Assembly: GCA_016350165.1 (NCBI GenBank)
Contig: CP066225.1
Coordinates: forward strand, 2,294,001-2,358,000
Length of the DNA stretch: 64,000 nt
DNA from: Planctomycetota bacterium
GTDB taxonomy: Bacteria > Planctomycetota > Phycisphaerae > Phycisphaerales > Phycisphaeraceae
Reading direction: 5' to 3'
Part shown: positions 33,600-42,483 of the stretch, piece after piece
Layout of the letters: every line of letters starts with the position of its first letter
How positions within the stretch are numbered: position 1 is the stretch's first letter
Translations under genes and position numbers: made by a program
The notes under the pieces: generated by a model
Database searches by the model: none
Seen by the model: only the letters and a program-made list of their open reading frames with translations
What the model was told of the DNA's origin: nothing

Positions 33600-34982
33600 A
33601 TGTGTGCAAAAAAAGCACCATTAATGTTGAGCGTGAGTGGGATGAGAGGCTGGGTTGGTGATTCATTAACACCAATTGAAGTGATTAGATATGCGGCGGC
33701 CTTCGGCAGTTGGCTTAAAGAATCTTTGGGTAATAAAGATGCTGCTCCACATGTAGTCATTGGTCGCGACTCACGCCCTTCTGGTGAGATGTTTGAAAGT
33801 GCGGCAAGCGCAGGCTTGGCAAGTGTTGGCTGTAAGGTGACAAAGCTAGGTATCGCATCGACGCCTGGTGTAGCAATTATGGGCAAGCATTTAAAAGCTG
33901 ATGGCGGTGTCGTTGTCACAGCAAGCCACAACCCTATTATTTGGAATGGCTTTAAAGCTTTACGCTCTGACGGTGTCGCTCCACCAGTGGATCAAGCGAA
34001 TGTCATCATTGAAAAATTCAAAAAGAATGAAGCAGATTATGTCGGCGTAGAAAAACTACAACCAATCTGCGAAGACAAAACAACGGCTCAAGTGCATGTT
34101 GACAAGGTTCTTCAGCATATTGACGTCGAAGCAGTTAAAGCTGCGAAATTACATGCTGTTGTAGATTCAGTGCATGGCGCGGGTGGCGAGGAAGCTAAGA
34201 TTCTATTTGATGCACTTGGGGTTCAGATCACGCACTTATATGCGGAACCTACAGGACAATTCCCACACGTACCAGAGCCAACACAAGAAAATCTTGTGGA
34301 GCTAGCTAAAGTAGTAAAGAAAGAAGACGCAGATATTGGGTTTGCTCAAGATCCGGATGCTGACAGGCTTGCTGTTGTAGATAACAACGGCAAATATATT
34401 GGTGAAGAGTATACACTTGCTTTATGTGCAAAGCATGTACTTCGCGAGGGAGATAGTTCTGCAGCTAATCTTTCAACGAGCCGCATGCTTGATGACATTG
34501 CAAAGGCGGCTGGAGCGTCAGTTATAAGGTCAGCTGTTGGCGAAGCGAATGTCGCATCTGCTATGAAAGCAAATAATGCGATTGTTGGTGGCGAAGGTAA
34601 TGGTGGAATTATCTGGTCAAAAGTGATACATGTACGTGATTCATTGGTTGGCATCGCACTCCTCTGTGAGATGCTTGCTCAACGCAAAACGACACTCGAT
34701 AAGATTGTCGAAGAAATTCCAAGTTATGCTATCGTTAAAGACAAAGTTGATCTTGAATCTGGAATGGGTGAAAAGATTATGCCAACAATGCTTGATGTCT
34801 TTGGCGATCAAAAAATCGATATCCAGGACGGCGTGCGTGTTGATTGGGAAAACAAGTGGGTTCATGTTCGTACGAGTAACACAGAACCAATTATGCGAAT
34901 CATCGCTGAAGCAAGTAGTGATAATGAAGCAGTTGATTTAATAAATCAAGTTAGAGAAGCATTAAAACTTCCAACGATATAA
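33600..34982 (+). CDS. Phosphohexomutase (GlmM/phosphomannomutase family)
   Basis: A 460-residue alpha-D-phosphohexomutase. Seen: SVSGMRGWVGD at the N terminus, the phosphoserine loop VTASHNP (Ser about 109), the metal loop DPDADR, the sugar loop GGEGNGG and the phosphate-binding end RTSNTEPIMRI. The SGMRG start and GEGNGG loop suit GlmM or a close relative. If GlmM, it makes glucosamine-1-phosphate for peptidoglycan, but phosphomannomutase activity cannot be excluded. AAGGAG precedes the ATG at 33600; an earlier in-frame start lacks it. It probably shares a transcript with the HAD gene and ends at a shared terminator. Confidence 0.88.
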   Translation: MCAKKAPLMLSVSGMRGWVGDSLTPIEVIRYAAAFGSWLKESLGNKDAAPHVVIGRDSRPSGEMFESAASAGLASVGCKVTKLGIASTPGVAIMGKHLKADGGVVVTASHNPIIWNGFKALRSDGVAPPVDQANVIIEKFKKNEADYVGVEKLQPICEDKTTAQVHVDKVLQHIDVEAVKAAKLHAVVDSVHGAGGEEAKILFDALGVQITHLYAEPTGQFPHVPEPTQENLVELAKVVKKEDADIGFAQDPDADRLAVVDNNGKYIGEEYTLALCAKHVLREGDSSAANLSTSRMLDDIAKAAGASVIRSAVGEANVASAMKANNAIVGGEGNGGIIWSKVIHVRDSLVGIALLCEMLAQRKTTLDKIVEEIPSYAIVKDKVDLESGMGEKIMPTMLDVFGDQKIDIQDGVRVDWENKWVHVRTSNTEPIMRIIAEASSDNEAVDLINQVREALKLPTI

Positions 34983-35010
34983 GTAAGACTTCAAATAAAT
35001 AGTAACACTT

Positions 35011-35037
35011 AAAAAGCCGCTTAAAGCGGCTTTTTTT
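35011..35037. terminator. Bidirectional terminator between the phosphohexomutase gene and the phage-like operon
   Basis: AAAAAGCCGCTT / AAGCGGCTTTTT with a 2-base loop and T runs on both sides. Its last bases overlap the stop codon of the minus-strand lipoprotein gene. It is the only terminator seen for the whole minus-strand operon reaching from 40620 down to here. Confidence 0.92.
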
Positions 35038-35539
35038 ATGGCAAGATTGGTTGTTGCGTATCTAACCGTCTCCCAACCACCGGTGTATACACCACGTGCA
35101 ACACACCACCCTGCTGGGCAACTTTGCTTTCATGCATCTCTAACGGAAAAAAGTAACTCCTCGCGATGGGGTCATAATACTTTTCTTGTGCTTGTAATGT
35201 TGTTAGGTCAATATTCCATGCGTAGAGTTTAGACCCTGCGCCGCCACTTGTTGGGCCTACAGCTTCTAATAGCTCAAATGCGTAAATCCCCGATCCTTTG
35301 ATAGAATCTCCCATCTCATCAAAAAGCTCAACTCGAGCTTCAAGAATCTGTGTTTTATCTTTTACAACAAAGCGTGTAGAAGGATATATTCGTAGAGCTA
35401 TTGGTTTCGGTTGCCACGCTTTACTCGTCACGAGATTGTTCTGTGAATCATTGGAAATTTCTTTGCCTTTGAATTCACATCCATACAAATTAAAAAGTAT
35501 GAATAAACTCAGAAGTAGTAATAGCAGTGTATATCTCAT
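35036..35539 (-). CDS. Small lipoprotein at the end of the phage-like operon
   Basis: A 167-residue protein with a lipoprotein signal: MRYTLLLLLLSLFILFNLYGC, the Cys at 21 being the lipidation site. The mature part looks like a beta sandwich (RIYPSTRFVVKDKTQILEARVELFDEMGD). I chose the ATG at 35539 because it opens the signal peptide. It lies 93 bases after the holin-like gene with no strong terminator between, so it may be the last gene of the capsid operon or a host gene read along with it. No family recognised. Confidence 0.65.
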   Translation of the reverse strand: MRYTLLLLLLSLFILFNLYGCEFKGKEISNDSQNNLVTSKAWQPKPIALRIYPSTRFVVKDKTQILEARVELFDEMGDSIKGSGIYAFELLEAVGPTSGGAGSKLYAWNIDLTTLQAQEKYYDPIARSYFFPLEMHESKVAQQGGVLHVVYTPVVGRRLDTQQPILP

Positions 35540-35631
35540 ACAGCTAAAGATAAGCATTTCAGTATATAGAATCAACACCTTGCAAAATGCGAGAGTTATA
35601 TTCACATGAACAGCACTCTCAAGCATTACTT

Positions 35632-35850
35632 TTATGACTTGTTTTCATTCTCGACCAAATTCTGATCAATTTTGCCCTGAACCGATATGTATCCTAGCGA
35701 GGTCATAACGAGAACACACATGGCTGTAATTGCTTGTGATGCTTGCATGACATCTGATTCATATGCAGGGAAACATAGCACAAGCAATGCTGTTAACTGT
35801 GTAGATACAGCAATTATGAATTTACGGCTCAACCATGATTTGTTTTTCAT
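35632..35850 (-). CDS. Holin-like two-helix membrane protein
   Basis: A 72-residue protein with two hydrophobic helices (about 9-29 and 34-56), a short basic N terminus and a polar C terminus. The pattern SRKFIIAV...GYISVQGKIDQ resembles small phage holin-type proteins. Its position at the end of a phage structural operon supports that reading. Its ATG lies one base past the stop of the preceding gene. A true holin role needs an endolysin, and none is seen in the window. Confidence 0.55.
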   Translation of the reverse strand: MKNKSWLSRKFIIAVSTQLTALLVLCFPAYESDVMQASQAITAMCVLVMTSLGYISVQGKIDQNLVENENKS

Positions 35851-35851
35851 T

Positions 35852-36127
35852 TCAAATTCCCATCGTCTTAGCGCAAAATTTAATTTTTCTTTGAATAGAT
35901 TGAATTAATCTATGTATCACTTGATACTGGTATTCTTCTATAGCTAACCCTTCAAGCATATTTTTAATATTTTCATCTCTGTCAATTTCTTGCACTGTAA
36001 GCTCAACAAGTTTGTTGTGATCTATGAATGCCGATAGATTGGGATGCTCTTCCGACCATAGTTTCCAGTCTTCACTGATTTGATTATTTATCAATCTCTT
36101 CAGAGCTAATCCCTTATCATCTTTCAT
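35852..36127 (-). CDS. Small helical protein of the phage-like operon
   Basis: A 91-residue, highly charged, probably all-helical protein with no known domain. AGGAGGA lies just before the ATG at 36127, which decides the start; the frame upstream belongs to the coding part of the previous gene. It overlaps the lipoprotein gene before it by 11 bases and is followed after 1 base by the holin-like gene. Function unknown. Confidence 0.65.
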   Translation of the reverse strand: MKDDKGLALKRLINNQISEDWKLWSEEHPNLSAFIDHNKLVELTVQEIDRDENIKNMLEGLAIEEYQYQVIHRLIQSIQRKIKFCAKTMGI

Positions 36128-36569
36128 ATTTTTCCTCCTTCTGAGTTTTGAAAGGTAAAAATCCATCCGTAATCTGTGTAACCATATCCTGTTGATATAT
36201 AAGTAAACTAACAGCCTTATCATTAAGCAGACTCGCTTTGCGTAATTGATCCTGCTTATTAATTAATTTCTGCTTTTCTGAAAAATAATTTGTTACCAAA
36301 TTCTGCAACGCAATACCATAAACCTGATTTGCTTCACAAATCCAATCTTTATCAATCTGCGTATCATGTAACATCACATCTCTAAAAAATACTTCATCTA
36401 GATTCTTACGAGTATTCTCATAATTCACAAAATCTTTTTGAATCACTTGATCGATAAAATTGATCTGATCATTCAAAACAGTGTTTGTATGCTGTAAAAC
36501 CGGAATTATATTTGACTCTGATACACAACCTGACGTAAACAGCAATAAACTAACAATTAAAATACGCAT
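36117..36569 (-). CDS. Small lipoprotein, possible outer-membrane spanin-like
   Basis: A 150-residue protein with a lipoprotein signal (MRILIVSLLLFTSGC, Cys at 15) and a long helical mature part that looks able to form coiled coils. Directly upstream is a protein with one N-terminal membrane helix and a coiled coil. A membrane-anchored coil next to a lipoprotein is the layout of two-component spanins (i-spanin and o-spanin) of phages, though this lipoprotein is longer than usual o-spanins. Function inferred only. Confidence 0.55.
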   Translation of the reverse strand: MRILIVSLLLFTSGCVSESNIIPVLQHTNTVLNDQINFIDQVIQKDFVNYENTRKNLDEVFFRDVMLHDTQIDKDWICEANQVYGIALQNLVTNYFSEKQKLINKQDQLRKASLLNDKAVSLLIYQQDMVTQITDGFLPFKTQKEEKYER

Positions 36570-36571
36570 GT

Positions 36572-36853
36572 TTATCCCTCTCTATTTTTGTTTATGGTAA
36601 AGGCGATATTAATATTATCCAGCGACTCTTTTAAGCGATTTTGTGTTTGATTAAATTTTTCTATTGTTTCAGTATTCTGTTTAACAATGTCGATTAATAC
36701 ACCGAATTTTTCCTGTTGTCTAAAAATATAGTCATGTGATTCGGAAAGTTGTTTAATCAAACTCCTTGACATAAATCGCTCCCAAATCCATAGGACTCCC
36801 ATTAATCCCGCAACACCAAATTGAACGAGAAGTTTTACGATTTCAACTGACAT
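36572..36853 (-). CDS. Membrane-anchored coiled-coil protein (BhlA/i-spanin-like)
   Basis: A 93-residue protein: one hydrophobic helix (about 6-25, LLVQFGVAGLMGVLWIW), then a basic turn and a long coiled-coil helix. This layout recalls the BhlA/UviB holin-like proteins and also inner-membrane spanins. GGTGGGA precedes the start. It lies between the connector-like gene and the lipoprotein gene with gaps of only 8 and 2 bases. Confidence 0.55.
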   Translation of the reverse strand: MSVEIVKLLVQFGVAGLMGVLWIWERFMSRSLIKQLSESHDYIFRQQEKFGVLIDIVKQNTETIEKFNQTQNRLKESLDNINIAFTINKNREG

Positions 36854-36861
36854 AATCCCAC

Positions 36862-37476
36862 CTATGTGCGTTTAAGCTGAATGCTATTTAAATGTATTAG
36901 ATGATTGGGAACACTCTCACTATCCGAATCAATCTCAATTGCTAATCGCTCGATTAAATTTTTATATTTTTTATCATAATGCTCCATTTTAATTTTATTC
37001 ATAAAATGACCTTCCTCACCCATAGCGATAGCAGCTGAATAGATTTGAAATAGAACTAAATTTGCTTCTATTTCTTGTATATTATTTATGTCTAATATCT
37101 GATCTTGTTCAACATTTAAATGGCTTAATAGTGATTCATGCACTAACGATATTTGATGTTTGAAGGTAGGTACACTAAACACACCATTTTGTGAATATGA
37201 CCCCTTAATATAAGGATCTGACGCATTAACACGTATTTGAGACAGACGTAGTTTATTTGCTGATATCTTTTCAACAATCTCATATGACTTATCGTTTAAT
37301 TTTAGAATCCCCCCTGCTTGAATTGGATATTCATTGAAATCCACAGCATCACTCGTTAACACAAACCCATCAAAATCACATGCTGCGTTTTCAATTATAT
37401 TTTGACTCGTAAAAATAACTTCATTAAGAATATTTGGTTCATATAACAATAAATCCCTATCTGATATAAAACACAT
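36862..37476 (-). CDS. Phage head-tail connector-like protein
   Basis: A 204-residue protein without a recognised domain. It begins MCFISDRDLLLYEPNILNE, much as head-completion or adaptor proteins do, continues with a beta-rich part (about 55-105) and ends in helices with ELAVL-like periodicity. Its place directly after the capsid gene is where phages with this gene order encode the connector or adaptor. AAGGAAAAG precedes the start. The assignment rests on position and length. Confidence 0.5.
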   Translation of the reverse strand: MCFISDRDLLLYEPNILNEVIFTSQNIIENAACDFDGFVLTSDAVDFNEYPIQAGGILKLNDKSYEIVEKISANKLRLSQIRVNASDPYIKGSYSQNGVFSVPTFKHQISLVHESLLSHLNVEQDQILDINNIQEIEANLVLFQIYSAAIAMGEEGHFMNKIKMEHYDKKYKNLIERLAIEIDSDSESVPNHLIHLNSIQLKRT

Positions 37477-37495
37477 ACTTTTCCTTTGTATATAT

Positions 37496-37521
37496 AAGTG
37501 AGCCAGTTGCCTGGCTCACTT
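37496..37521 (-). other. Perfect hairpin after the capsid gene
   Basis: AAGTGAGCCAG / CTGGCTCACTT, an 11-bp perfect stem with a 4-base loop, 8 bases after the capsid stop. On the minus strand it is not followed by a T run, so it is probably an mRNA-stabilising or partial-attenuation element. Such an element would let the capsid protein be made in excess of the genes behind it. Confidence 0.7.
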
Positions 37522-37528
37522 GATGCAT

Positions 37529-38659
37529 TTACGACACATCCAAATTTTCAATTAAACCGTGTGCATTCTCATTTCTAAATTCGAGTGTATACTCACCAAT
37601 TAATTGACCACTTTCAGAATCACCTGCTGATGCTAATGGTTTATAGTGAAAACTACGGCCGTTCAACGGCACGACTGAAACACGTGACGAATCAAGCAAA
37701 AGAATTTTGTCTCTTGGCACCCATCGTGACAAAACAACACGGCATACACCAAAATCTGATTCATATATATCAACCAAATCTGAGTATTTGTTATCAGTTG
37801 CGCTATAACTTCGATTACCACTAATAATATTATTTATTTTTCGTTTTTGATAGCCATTAACAACAATCGTATCTACATGTCCTGCTGATTGCTCCCAGAT
37901 AGATCGTAAAGCTTCATTCAATGCTTCCTCAGTAAGCTCGCTACTTGAGGCATCAGTAATGTTGGAGGTAATAGATGGAATCAATCCACGCATCGTTCGC
38001 CTTGTCGTATGACTCCCTTGCTGATTCAACGATGGAGACATACCATTAATTACACTATTCTCAAGATCACGTAGCAATTCTCGAAGTCTTTCTTGCTTCT
38101 GATAATCAAGCTCATCTGCAACTCCGACTTGTTTCGTAGCAAGCATTGAGCCAGACACTTCAATCGCTGAAGTAAAAATCTGAGTATAGTTCATACAACG
38201 CTTACGATTTGTAAAAATTGCTTTAGGTGCATTTTCGCCTTCGTAGGCTGCTCCACTTATACGATAAATCTTTGTAGCAGCTACAATTTCCTCATTACTG
38301 CTACCGCCATACCCTCTCGTTACTGAAATCTCCTGGGCAACACTGGCAGCATTGACTTGCATAATCTCGCTGTAACCTTCAAAGCGGATTAAATCCCCAG
38401 TTTTAAACAAACTACTATCCTGTACTTGAATCTCATCAGCTTGTTCGTCAACAGCGTTGATCAACGATGTCTGATTTGGTTGAAGATTATCTTCAAGCCA
38501 TTCATGCACTGTACTGGTTGCAACAAGATTTGAATCACCTAGATAGTCGAGTAGTGCAGTTTCGTAAGGACTGACAATACTAACAATATCTGAAATATCC
38601 TCGGCAATTTCTGGCAGAGTATTACCTGCAGAAAATGTTGCTTTTCCTGTAAATGACAT
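37529..38659 (-). CDS. Phage major capsid protein, SU10/DUF5309 type
   Basis: A 376-residue protein resembling the DUF5309/SU10-like major capsid proteins (HK97 fold). Marks: the N-terminal segment DIVSIVSPYETALLDYLG, EWLEDNL, a central helix RLRELLRDLENSVINGM and the later VVNGYQKRKINNI and LSRWVPRDKILLLDSSRV. I chose the ATG at 38659 because TTGGAG stands the proper distance before it; an in-frame TTG just upstream would consume that site. It follows the scaffold-like gene closely, as in tailed phages. Confidence 0.8.
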   Translation of the reverse strand: MSFTGKATFSAGNTLPEIAEDISDIVSIVSPYETALLDYLGDSNLVATSTVHEWLEDNLQPNQTSLINAVDEQADEIQVQDSSLFKTGDLIRFEGYSEIMQVNAASVAQEISVTRGYGGSSNEEIVAATKIYRISGAAYEGENAPKAIFTNRKRCMNYTQIFTSAIEVSGSMLATKQVGVADELDYQKQERLRELLRDLENSVINGMSPSLNQQGSHTTRRTMRGLIPSITSNITDASSSELTEEALNEALRSIWEQSAGHVDTIVVNGYQKRKINNIISGNRSYSATDNKYSDLVDIYESDFGVCRVVLSRWVPRDKILLLDSSRVSVVPLNGRSFHYKPLASAGDSESGQLIGEYTLEFRNENAHGLIENLDVS

Positions 38660-38671
38660 ATTTTTCTCCAA

Positions 38672-39226
38672 TTATTTTTTCTTACGTTTAATTCTTAGAT
38701 ATCGCAGCAAATCTGCGCGATTTCCTGTTTGCGTCGCACTAACTGCTGCTGTTTCAATTTCATTATTTTGAATATATTCATTCGCCGGCATGGCAGATGC
38801 GCATATCGAATGTTTGCTACGGAAAAGGTAAGGCTTAGATTCTCTTAAATCTTTAATTGTTTCCTCAATATCCGGCTCATCCATTGATTCGATTGCGATC
38901 TCTGTTAGCAATCTGGCTGCATCCAGATCTATTGCTTCTTCTTGAGCGAGCAATGAGTTTATATGTTGCTTTCGCTCCAAATACTTAACTGTTTCCTCTG
39001 TTTCTTTTAATTCATCTGAAAGTGAACCGACTTTATCTTGCATTTCTGTCAGCATTTTCTCAGCGACCTGCGCTCTCTTTCTGTATTTGATGGCTTCAGA
39101 TACAGGAACCTTTTTTTCTGTAATGCTATCTTTAGTGACTACAGGTTCAGTATTATCATTACTACTCATATCTAGATTACAACTATTATCATTATTTGAT
39201 TTTTCTACCATGTATTTTACTCTCAA
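38672..39226 (-). CDS. Phage scaffold-like protein
   Basis: A 184-residue acidic protein with a central coiled coil (about 45-100: KYRKRAQVAEKMLTEMQDKV...) and a basic C terminus (RYLRIKRKKK). Charge pattern and place between portal and capsid genes are those of scaffolding proteins. The start is either the TTG at 39226, which overlaps the portal stop (TTGA) and has GAGGAAAG before it, or the ATG at 39211. The overlap favours coupled translation from the TTG. Confidence 0.65.
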   Translation of the reverse strand: MRVKYMVEKSNNDNSCNLDMSSNDNTEPVVTKDSITEKKVPVSEAIKYRKRAQVAEKMLTEMQDKVGSLSDELKETEETVKYLERKQHINSLLAQEEAIDLDAARLLTEIAIESMDEPDIEETIKDLRESKPYLFRSKHSICASAMPANEYIQNNEIETAAVSATQTGNRADLLRYLRIKRKKK

Positions 39227-40620
39227 CTTTCCTCGATTTGATCAATTTTGCTATACCCAAGTTCAGCTAGTACCTGCTTTTGTGGCACGCCTATTCGTAG
39301 CTTCTTTTCAGCATTTACTAAACTCTGCGACTCACCTATAGGCATTGGCTCTGGCCAATCTAAACGAACTAGCCTTTCTTCTGGCTTTGTTACAAACTCG
39401 CCTGTGATAGTTGCGGCATGAAGAATCATATTGCACATTTTGATCAAACCATCACCATAATTGATCCTCTTTTTCGCAGTTTTCGCGAGCAAACCCATCA
39501 TCACAATACGTAATGCATTTTCACTTGTAAGATTCCCAATTCGATCACGAACAGAGCCTGTAACCAGCGGACTAATACCACTCGCTTTATCAAGCGCGTC
39601 TCGGATTTCTGCGATATGGCTGTCTTCAGAAGGCGTATGGGCATCTCCACCAAATTCCTCAATTTCAGCATCTAAGTTTTCTGTTGCCCACATTTGACCT
39701 GGACCAACCTGCCGATCAACAAAACCATCAATCCCTTTACCCAAATACATCTTAAATGCATGAAATGTCACACGATTAGCACGATCCGAAAGTCTCGTAT
39801 TAAGTTCATCCTGCAAGCTGATTAATGGCTCGACTTCACCCAAACCCTCATAATGAAATGGCTGCGACATATTTTGAATATGTACTAAAGGCATATATCC
39901 AAACGGATTTGGCGTTCGTGTTACTTTGCTATGATGCGAGATATCACCATTCGGCACTAACGCATAATCAAAATATTCAGGTGTTAAGTGATAAATATGA
40001 GATACAGATTTGGCGGTATTTTTCTGCAACACCTTAGACTTCAATTTTCCTAACAGCGTTTTTTGAATACCGCTGTTTTCTTCATCCCATGCAATCACAT
40101 ATGAGTCTAACTTTCGATAATCCGATGCACTTAGTTTTGGAACAATTCTTGGAGCAGCTAATGTTTCAATCACAATTTGCTTTGAGTCATCAATCCTTAC
40201 AAGCAAATCAACAAAACCATAGATCGCTCCAATGAGTGCAAGATTGTGATAAAAATTCATACCACCATTTGCTTTTATTGTATCTTTCAAAAATCGCTCG
40301 ATATCATCAGCTCTCTCGGATGATGTTGCCAAACTTTGTATCGTTGGCTCTCGTGAGAACATAAAATCGATCATCGCATGTACTCGCCATGCAATATCAT
40401 TCTCAATAACAATCTCCTTTGCTGCACCAAACGCGTCCTTTCGCTTCAGACGAGCGGGCAATCCTTCTCGCTGCGTTTGCGAATCATGTGGATTGCGATA
40501 GTAACCCCATAGTTTTTGATACGTGGGAAGACGAGTTGCTTGGTATTGCTTAATATTGCCGAATAATTCATTCATACCTTTCAATCCGACTGGTGTCGTA
40601 TTTTCGGATTTCCGAGCCAT
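39223..40620 (-). CDS. Phage portal protein
   Basis: A 465-residue portal protein, forming in phages the ring at one capsid vertex through which DNA passes. Family-like features: the N-terminal helical YQKLWGYYRNP, VHAMIDFMFSREPTIQ, the HIQNMSQPFHYEGLGEVEPLI stretch, and LQDELNTRLSDRANRV with the following stem region. The GISPLVTGSVRDRIGNLTSENALR stretch fits SPP1-type portals. AAGGAGGAATA precedes the ATG at 40620. It is the first gene of the operon. No terminase gene lies upstream, where phages usually have one. Confidence 0.85.
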   Translation of the reverse strand: MARKSENTTPVGLKGMNELFGNIKQYQATRLPTYQKLWGYYRNPHDSQTQREGLPARLKRKDAFGAAKEIVIENDIAWRVHAMIDFMFSREPTIQSLATSSERADDIERFLKDTIKANGGMNFYHNLALIGAIYGFVDLLVRIDDSKQIVIETLAAPRIVPKLSASDYRKLDSYVIAWDEENSGIQKTLLGKLKSKVLQKNTAKSVSHIYHLTPEYFDYALVPNGDISHHSKVTRTPNPFGYMPLVHIQNMSQPFHYEGLGEVEPLISLQDELNTRLSDRANRVTFHAFKMYLGKGIDGFVDRQVGPGQMWATENLDAEIEEFGGDAHTPSEDSHIAEIRDALDKASGISPLVTGSVRDRIGNLTSENALRIVMMGLLAKTAKKRINYGDGLIKMCNMILHAATITGEFVTKPEERLVRLDWPEPMPIGESQSLVNAEKKLRIGVPQKQVLAELGYSKIDQIEES

Positions 40621-40715
40621 TATTCCTCCTTGTGCGGTATACACATTCTGATCACTACAGAATTTATGTTTCCTGTACCCAATCAGCGAAAACGCGTTCT
40701 CGTGCGCCTTTCTGT

Positions 40716-40731
40716 TGCTTTAAGCTCACCA
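40716..40731 (-). promoter_or_regulatory. Possible sigma-54 promoter of the capsid operon
   Basis: The minus strand reads TGGTGAGCTTAAAGCA. The invariant GG and GC are correctly spaced, but the match outside them is weak. It would start transcription near 40705, about 85 bases before the portal ATG. Its interest comes from the divergent sigma-54 activator gene next door. Confidence 0.25.
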
Positions 40732-40887
40732 TGATGTTTTTATCTGCTTTGTTTTGTGAGATTTATAGATTTTAAATATGCGAGACAAAAATGTTAGGTT
40801 CCTGATTGGTATTTGTGCGCAAAACTATAGTATGTAATGCGTATTATTCACTTGAATTTTTACAGAGTGATGATTTAATAGTCAGTA

Positions 40888-42483
40888 ATGAAAAATAGCG
40901 AGCAAGAATTAGTCACATTAGCTGAGGTTACCCAAATCCTAGGTGACGGCCTCGAATTGCATCAAGTCTTTCAACGAGCAATGACCATGCTCTCCGAACG
41001 GCTTGCTATCAGCCGCGCGGCGCTTGTACTTCTAGACCAAGCAACCGACCAGCTTCAAATCTTTGCTGCCATTGGACTTACCTCTAAAGAACAACAACGC
41101 GGTCAATATTCAATTGGCGAAGGCGTCACAGGTCAGGTACTTGCGAGCGGCAAACCTGCGATCATTTCCGACATTTCCAAACATCCAGATTTTCTCAACC
41201 GCACCAAAAGCCGCCCAGTATCAAATGAGAACGACAAACCAATTGCATTCATCTGCCTGCCCGTCAAAGACGGCAATGACTACGTCGGCACCATTAGCAT
41301 TGACCTCCCCTATCAGGGCCAAGAAGAACTTAACGCCACCACAAGCTTTCTAACCATTATCGCAGGCTTGTTCTCACAGACTGTTCGTATCCACCATCTC
41401 ATCCAAATGGAGAAAGAGCAATGGGCCACAGAGAATCAACAGCTCAGAGACAACCTTCATAACAAATATCGATTTGACAACATCATCGGCTCAAGCCCTG
41501 CAATGCTGGATGTTCTCTCAACGATCGGCCAAGTCTCATCTTCACGCGCGACCATATTACTGCTTGGTGAAACCGGTTGCGGCAAGGAGCTCATTGCAAA
41601 AGCGATTCATTACAACTCACCACGCAAAGACAAGCCAATGATTCGGATCAACTGCGGCGCACTCTCACCGCAATTACTTGAATCTGAGCTATTTGGTCAT
41701 GTTAAAGGTGCATTTACTGGGGCTGTACGTGATAAAATTGGGCGATTCGAAGCTGCAAATGGAGGAACAATCTTCCTCGATGAAGTCGGCACTCTTGATA
41801 CACAACTGCAAGTCAAGCTATTGCGTGTCCTGCAAGAACGAGAACTGGAGCGGGTAGGTGACCACCAAACAATAAATATAGATGTACGCGTCATCGCTGC
41901 TACGAACTTGGATCTTGAGGAGGAAGTACGTAAAGGTAACTTCCGTGAAGATCTTTATTACAGACTCAATGTTGTCACGGTCAATCTTCCTTCATTACGT
42001 AATCGACGTGATGACATTCCAAAACTTATTGACCACTTCCTTGATCTATATAACAAGGAAAACAATCGCAATCTTTCAAAGATGAATCGCGATGTACTCA
42101 ACACACTCCTACGTTACCCATGGCCAGGCAACGTACGTGAACTTGAAAACGCAATAGAGCGTGCAACCGTCCTATCAACGAATGACGAATTCACACTCGA
42201 ATTACTCCCGTTACAAATTCGCATGTATGCCCAACAAACGCGAGGTGACAGCATCAACGATTCAGTAGAAGCACTCTCTTCAAAACTAGCCGAACTTGGA
42301 ATCAAGCAATACAGCATATACGAAGGTGAAATCTACAGCCTCATCATTAACGAAGTCGAGAAACAGCTTATCCGTGAAGCATTAAGCTACAACGATGGCA
42401 CCAAAACTCGCACCGCTGATTTTCTTGGCATCAATCGAAACACACTTAACAAAAAAGTTAAAGAGTTCGGCATCACAAGCTAA
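40888..42483 (+). CDS. Sigma-54-dependent activator (GAF-AAA+-Fis), NifA-like layout
   Basis: A 531-residue enhancer-binding protein. An N-terminal GAF sensor domain (about 24-165) is followed by the AAA+ ATPase (about 197-425) with Walker A GETGCGKE (227-234), the sigma-54-contact loop GAFTGA (274-279), Walker B FLDE and the VRELENAIERA end. The C terminus has a Fis-type helix-turn-helix (TRTADFLGINRNTLNKKVKEF). It is not a response regulator, as no receiver is present; the signal is probably a small molecule or protein acting on GAF. Divergent from the phage capsid operon across 267 bases, so it may control it. Ends at a terminator. Confidence 0.93.
   Translation: MKNSEQELVTLAEVTQILGDGLELHQVFQRAMTMLSERLAISRAALVLLDQATDQLQIFAAIGLTSKEQQRGQYSIGEGVTGQVLASGKPAIISDISKHPDFLNRTKSRPVSNENDKPIAFICLPVKDGNDYVGTISIDLPYQGQEELNATTSFLTIIAGLFSQTVRIHHLIQMEKEQWATENQQLRDNLHNKYRFDNIIGSSPAMLDVLSTIGQVSSSRATILLLGETGCGKELIAKAIHYNSPRKDKPMIRINCGALSPQLLESELFGHVKGAFTGAVRDKIGRFEAANGGTIFLDEVGTLDTQLQVKLLRVLQERELERVGDHQTINIDVRVIAATNLDLEEEVRKGNFREDLYYRLNVVTVNLPSLRNRRDDIPKLIDHFLDLYNKENNRNLSKMNRDVLNTLLRYPWPGNVRELENAIERATVLSTNDEFTLELLPLQIRMYAQQTRGDSINDSVEALSSKLAELGIKQYSIYEGEIYSLIINEVEKQLIREALSYNDGTKTRTADFLGINRNTLNKKVKEFGITS

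Follow-up and report, generated by a model that had tools for sequence, protein, structure and literature searches.

A phage-type head cassette of the Phycisphaerae and its distant terminase: a candidate gene-transfer-agent-like system

Why would a bacterial chromosome keep an intact set of phage head genes with no integrase, terminase or tail seen beside them? The question is raised by a cassette at positions 35632-40620 of a 64-kb stretch of DNA (the window; bases 2294001-2358000 of contig CP066225.1, assembly GCA_016350165.1) from a planctomycete of the family Phycisphaeraceae, whose genome (G000) is one contig of 5.23 Mb. A sequence-only reading had described eight intact, tightly spaced genes, among them portal, scaffold-like, SU10-type capsid and connector-like genes, and had proposed either a domesticated, gene-transfer-agent-like capsid module with packaging genes elsewhere or a capsid-forming satellite. 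The cassette was compared across 201 genomes of the order and a wider phylum sample of 392. We put at about three in four the probability that these genes form the head part of a gene-transfer-agent-like system, exapted long ago, in which head and packaging genes occupy separate loci and no conserved tail has been recognised. The head and packaging operons are found together, descend for the most part with the host and are maintained by selection.

The description of the eight genes was confirmed in the sequence: all are open and closely packed, a purine-rich stretch precedes most starts, and transcription runs on the minus strand from the portal through the scaffold-like, capsid and adaptor-like genes to the small genes. 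The portal protein gene (39223..40620) matched Pfam SPP1_portal (5e-17) and PHROG portal proteins (3e-27), with supporting synteny in relatives. The scaffold-like gene (38672..39208), conserved in position, matched Phage_scaffold at 2e-5, below the Pfam cut-off, and PHROG head scaffolding proteins at 5e-4. The major capsid protein gene (37529..38656) is of the SU10 type (Pfam SU10_MCP, 5e-87).

The capsid protein matched 109 of the 201 order genomes, of which 108 were kept after G190 (26% identity) was left out; distant second matches (24-34%) in a few genomes were set aside. By reading of the rows, 88 of the 108 genes gave a single unbroken match, at about 49-64% identity (100% to itself). 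The synteny comparison that had been proposed as a check showed that the order portal, scaffold, capsid, adaptor, small genes is maintained across families, the small genes not being detectable everywhere, and the flanking genes are constant within the family of G000. The remaining capsid genes were split by an insertion in eight genomes (G033, G094, G122, G128, G143, G148, G164 and G193, the pieces being on separate contigs in G148 and in G193), rearranged in G015 beside the same kind of element, present as fragments only in G011 and G110, apparently frameshifted in G085, interrupted by one stop each in G014 and G074, and found as partial pieces in six draft genomes (G020, G076, G139, G140, G151 and G171). 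Two of these are decaying copies: in G011 (L196) the capsid gene is cut after codon ~41 and the large terminase gene has a stop, and in G110 (L197) the terminase is kept and most of the portal-to-capsid region is apparently lost.

The packaging motor was found on the same chromosome, and the supposition that packaging genes lie elsewhere was right. The Pfam terminase families PF03354, PF03237 and PF04466 gave no match in G000. Four below-cut-off matches to PF03237 in relatives turned out to form a single family of large terminases (TerL) in which Walker A, Walker B and nuclease motifs are present, and a profile made from those four sequences found TerL in 116 of the 201 order genomes. After exclusion of six weak hits (G031, G052, G100, G109, G133 and G163; E 7e-9 or worse) 110 remained, including a fragment in G198. 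The silence of Pfam in G000 was therefore not evidence of absence, because the four-sequence profile then recovered the gene. The sole above-cut-off match to PF03237, in G031, is a different terminase. In G000, TerL occupies 2396490-2397887, which places it about 38 kb beyond the end of the window and 64 kb away from the capsid gene; its motifs are intact where checked (RGGGKT, KLRCDE, MDFG and DHACDALRY), and it matched PHROG terminase large subunits (3e-14) and, in a PDB profile search, large terminases (1e-4).

TerL is the last gene of a packaging operon that in G000 also encodes a GNAT-like protein, a helix-turn-helix (HTH) protein, an ABC-type ATPase, a ParB-like protein and a 156-amino-acid candidate for the small terminase subunit (TerS), for which the structural model was of low confidence (pLDDT 71) and the Foldseek matches to Sf6 TerS stood at E > 1. 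Further operon members were found by tblastn in 19 of 20 loci fetched around TerL (L126-L145), L134 showing TerL only. In 14 of the 20, a divergent HTH-S24 repressor gene stands beside the operon and might control the system. Neither the head unit nor the packaging unit showed a gene for replication or integration.

The two loci are tightly associated in the order. Both capsid and TerL were present in 103 genomes, capsid only in five (G030, G118, G139, G151 and G185), TerL only in seven and neither in 86, giving a phi of 0.88 and a Fisher p of 1e-41 in a test that ignores relatedness. Among the seven with TerL only, the portal is at least partly kept in G038, G067, G103 and G127, and no portal was found in G025, G026 and G055. 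Where a single contig carried both genes, as noted for 47 genomes, the distance between them, read by hand, was 8.5-647 kb (median 35.5 kb) and below 150 kb in 42. The loci are separate yet share a neighbourhood, as if one ancestral locus had been pulled apart.

At a cut-off of E <= 1e-20, the capsid was found in 50 and TerL in 42 of the 392 phylum genomes. Beyond the order but still within the class, ten genomes hold the capsid, and the same ten hold TerL at E <= 5e-115. One of them, G513, has portal and capsid, a scaffold found by tblastn, and an adaptor and a lipoprotein recognised by reading, with an ABC ATPase, a GNAT-like protein and TerL about 9 kb from the head genes; it looks like the minimal core of the system. 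Outside the class, capsids at 34-51% identity were found in 22 genomes, eight of which hold TerL at E 1e-20 to 1e-27 only, and TerL occurs without capsid in four others (E 5e-22 to 2e-53). No other cassette gene adjoined the capsid in three loci examined there. In L261, L262 and L263, from families outside the class, the same capsid type (47-49%) was seen with other neighbours in a similar order; these families possibly carry a sister system.

Inheritance of these genes was largely that of the host. Protein distances correlated with those of RpoB at r = 0.68 for the capsid (27 genomes), 0.77 for the portal (27) and 0.85 for TerL (24), with none of 2000 permutations as high. The trees held 14 of 24, 12 of 24 and 10 of 21 splits, respectively, in common with RpoB. 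Partial sharing of splits together with RpoB-like distances indicates that descent was largely, not strictly, vertical. The proposed estimate of nonsynonymous to synonymous change (dN/dS by the Nei-Gojobori method, for at most the three closest pairs of each gene in each genus, a few dS values being saturated) gave 0.06-0.25 for the portal, 0.03-0.16 for the capsid, 0.06-0.19 for TerL and 0.05-0.50 for the adaptor-like gene. Portal, capsid and TerL, spanning 0.03-0.25, are under purifying selection.

These results bear directly on the view that the cassette is an ordinary prophage remnant or a defective prophage. Every recognised gene is of phage type, a few relatives carry truncations, deletions or stops, and in the genus of G000 the cassette has shifted towards A/T and changed fast, all of which a remnant would explain. 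A remnant is nevertheless highly improbable given presence in 108 of 201 genomes with the same flanks within the family of G000, RpoB-like distances, purifying selection and a terminase at a second locus. The cassette is neither patchy nor confined to one strain, and unbroken genes (88 of 108) far outnumber broken ones; the strain-specific presence or pseudogenes in relatives that would have pointed to a remnant are largely not seen.

A capsid-forming satellite, a phage-inducible island in need of a helper phage, is hardly credible for the cassette itself. Capsid-encoding elements with recombinase and primase-like genes do exist, and one kind sits inside the capsid gene of relatives (see below). 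The cassette has no integrase or replication gene among its nine head-unit proteins (Pfam and PHROG searches), fixed family flanks and host-like descent, and a search of IMG/VR with peptide patterns returned a single related capsid. A like search for TerL gave three relatives at 27-30% identity. Own integrase and mobility, by which a satellite would be known, were not seen in the cassette; the separate inserted element does carry a recombinase.

The domesticated, gene-transfer-agent-like module is instead supported by cross-family synteny, purifying selection, RpoB-like distances, a co-distributed terminase, the ten class genomes outside the order that hold both genes, a capsid G+C content close to that of the host in 20 relatives, and the distance of phage relatives (at most 33% identity among the matches listed). 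PMC9662315 lists six attributes of a gene transfer agent (GTA): proteins derived from tailed phages; full endogenisation, often at multiple loci; mostly vertical inheritance with co-diversification with the host; packaging of mostly random host DNA; a particle that cannot hold all the genes encoding it; and delivery of DNA to other cells. Three of the six were found here. Portal, capsid and TerL match tailed-phage families; the loci are 64 kb apart with family-fixed flanks and are separate in relatives as well; and inheritance is mostly vertical (r = 0.68-0.85 against RpoB). The system is classed as gene-transfer-agent-like and not as a proven GTA.

GTAs such as RcGTA, viriforms described in PMC9662315, resemble the present system in their tailed-phage-type portal, capsid and terminase, chromosomally fixed multi-locus organisation, host descent and purifying selection. 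Unlike in RcGTA, the head here combines an SU10 MCP with an SPP1-type portal, the terminase lies 64 kb off in an ABC-GNAT-ParB packaging operon, no tail was recognised in the unit, and packaging and transfer are predictions. SU10-type podoviruses share the capsid family SU10_MCP, and the adaptor model aligns lengthwise with SU10 tail chains (Z 6.3). They differ in sequence, phage relatives among the matches listed reaching at most 33% identity for the capsid, 21-25% for the portal and 21-24% for TerL, and replication and integration genes were not seen in the present units.

In the system as we picture it, scaffold and capsid would build a head on the portal, TerL would load chromosomal DNA through the portal, and the adaptor would close the particle, together with lineage-specific extra structural proteins where present. 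The holin-like and lipoprotein products may act at the envelope in release or attachment, and particles would probably be made by a subset of cells. With no replication or integration gene seen in either unit, such particles would carry mostly host DNA.

A domesticated capsid put to some other use, such as protein cargo, killing of competitors or storage and export of DNA, with the terminase kept for that or another use, is unlikely but deserves weight. It would suit the lack of a recognised tail in the head operon of G000 and the fact that other families have their own, different extra genes at this position; delivery in the gene-transfer reading is conjectural. Against it, a terminase with intact ATPase and nuclease motifs, a portal and a capsid have been kept together under purifying selection, which points to DNA packaging.

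Several observations weigh against a gene-transfer-agent-like system. Particle formation, DNA content and transfer are predictions from gene content. No tail gene was recognised in the head unit of G000; a conserved protein of about 580 amino acids from an extra block of relatives had no match in its genome, where other tail genes were not sought genome-wide. No endolysin was seen in the head unit. The HTH-S24 repressor was not seen in the genus of G000; G000 itself gave only a match at E 9e-4, so the gene is either absent there or strongly diverged. No more than about half of the splits in the trees agree with RpoB, shared ancestry enters into the co-occurrence statistic, and some relatives have lost or broken parts of the cassette. 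Fast change and the A/T shift within the genus could mean relaxed constraint. Between G000 and its sister species G049, matched cassette proteins are 31-64% identical and TerL 66%, against mostly 66-98% (one 54%) for flanking proteins, and orf8, orf7 and a 150-amino-acid lipoprotein had no match. The A/T-richness noted earlier is real, the capsid gene having a G+C content of 0.396 against 0.462 for the whole window, but it is a trait of this genus; in 20 relatives the G+C content of the capsid gene differs from that of the surrounding 20 kb by no more than about 0.03.

As a separate observation, cassette proteins within the genus (window 35036-40620 against L070) evolve much faster than most of their neighbours.

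If DNA is packaged, the gene-transfer-agent-like system would be one whose head and motor are encoded at separate loci and whose tail is minimal or lacking, and bacteria of this group may make their own DNA-carrying particles. The frequency with which phages are domesticated to exchange genes is still debated, and on this question the candidate offers a defined gene set, a packaging motor and many species to compare across a class of Planctomycetota. Three independently exapted GTA groups with a known genetic basis are evaluated in PMC9662315. No planctomycete GTA was found in the literature searched, which was read as titles and abstract starts and included no preprints and few subscription journals; in the parts seen, the GTA operon named in PMC13055281 is that of a Rhodobacteraceae genome, and PMC12213060 gives only a reference.

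The adaptor-like gene (36862..37476, minus strand) encodes 204 amino acids without a family match in Pfam or PHROG. Its predicted model, which is confident (pLDDT 94.1), aligned over the whole length in VIA-align with podovirus adaptor or portal-tail chains (Moo19, Z 7.2; N4, 6.7; SU10, 6.3; VP1, 6.2; GP4, 5.8), which is suggestive of a podovirus-type adaptor. The highest score went to a fragment of a tailspike (Z 8.0), and partial matches to unrelated chains were interspersed among the adaptor rows. Foldseek returned nothing from the PDB at E <= 0.001 and, from viral models, one match (9e-4) that covered only part of its target, a lipase-like tail protein.

Lineages differ in the extra genes carried at one cassette position. 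In the loci read (L074 11231-18784 and equivalents), a block between the adaptor gene and orf5 encodes a LamG-type protein and a TIGR03790 protein. The protein of about 580 amino acids from the relatives' block matched 29 of the 201 order genomes. In some loci of families f2 and f3, two small genes at this place had no PHROG match below E 0.6; they give no more than an impression of being tail-like. Open reading frames from all or part of the interval between cassette and TerL in 14 genomes were also compared in search of a third phage gene conserved there, and the idea was rejected: few frames of G000 were shared beyond the sister species, and those look cellular by reading, without family search.

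Downstream of the adaptor gene, all on the minus strand, are orf5 (36572..36853), a small membrane or coiled-coil protein gene that in many relatives follows the adaptor gene or an inserted block; the lipoprotein-like lipo6 (36117..36569), with a lipobox-like start by reading and matches in some relatives; orf7 (35852..36127), a small gene with matches in some relatives; and orf8 (35632..35850), a small holin-like membrane protein gene. The lysis function once ascribed to the cassette is poorly supported, orf8, with its product of 72 amino acids, giving the sole holin-like match (PHROG E 0.012, weak) in a unit where no endolysin was seen. The eight genes stand, but the unit extends beyond the limit first drawn at 35632, to 35036, since lipo9 (35036..35539, minus strand, start codon by reading), a lipoprotein-like gene conserved in position in relatives, belongs to it as its last gene. 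By reading, the unit ends at a palindrome with A/T flanks (about 35010..35034), unlisted by the scanner used, which is a possible two-way terminator shared with the convergent glmM.

On the other side, a divergent GAF/sigma-54 activator gene (40888..42483, plus strand; Pfam Sigma54_activat, 5e-72) is a possible regulator. It adjoins the portal in 13 of 14 own-family loci with more than 1.3 kb of upstream DNA and in none of the other loci compared. The pattern used for a sigma-54 promoter before the portal had no match in 12 loci, sigma-70-like sites in 34900-41000 numbered 13 against 23 expected, and no Rfam family reached its gathering score in 34000-42000.

A broader proposal, which could prove wrong as easily as right, is that the Phycisphaerae own an independently exapted, class-wide GTA lineage with a podovirus-type head, no conserved tail and split operons, old enough to be parasitised by serine-recombinase satellites with a capsid gene of their own that enter its capsid gene at one site, and that the resident capsid gene has also been captured by a phage. 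In the split capsid genes the break falls at one site, after about codon 57-63, and the inserts measure 10.5-11.6 kb in six contiguous cases (L059-L064, from G094, G033, G164, G143, G122 and G128; insert loci also include L065-L069). All six encode a large serine recombinase, a primase/helicase-like protein of the AAA type and a fusion of a protease with a capsid protein from a different capsid family; that in L062 has a type I methylase-specificity fusion as well. From these genes the insert looks like a capsid-encoding satellite with the resident capsid gene as attachment site, and such elements may parasitise the system. We know of no precedent for this, and the literature search turned up none, which is weak evidence of novelty. 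The capsid-forming phage satellites called cf-PICI are comparable to the insert of relatives, not to the cassette, in having a recombinase, a primase/helicase-like ATPase and their own protease-capsid protein. The insert differs in using a large serine recombinase and sitting in a resident capsid gene; it is absent from the window, and no terminase, portal or link to a helper came to light for it.

The insert ends bear, by reading, a short inverted repeat. The recombinase frame (L062 14442-16418 and other copies) runs on past the junction, so that its final ~60 codons correspond to the first ~60 of the capsid gene on the opposite strand, an overlap recognised because intact capsid genes in other places match it at 50-80%. 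Genome G164 holds, near its TerL locus (L134 19801-20000), another copy of the capsid gene that belongs to the element (97% over 66 residues).

The single IMG/VR capsid relative is a lone extra cassette-type gene (57% identical) on contig 3300033145_000895 (L058 7023-8183, L095). That contig belongs to a phage with a portal (2e-93), a major head protein (3e-68) and a terminase of its own, and its copy of the capsid gene nests within the Phycisphaerae capsids with moderate support (0.77).

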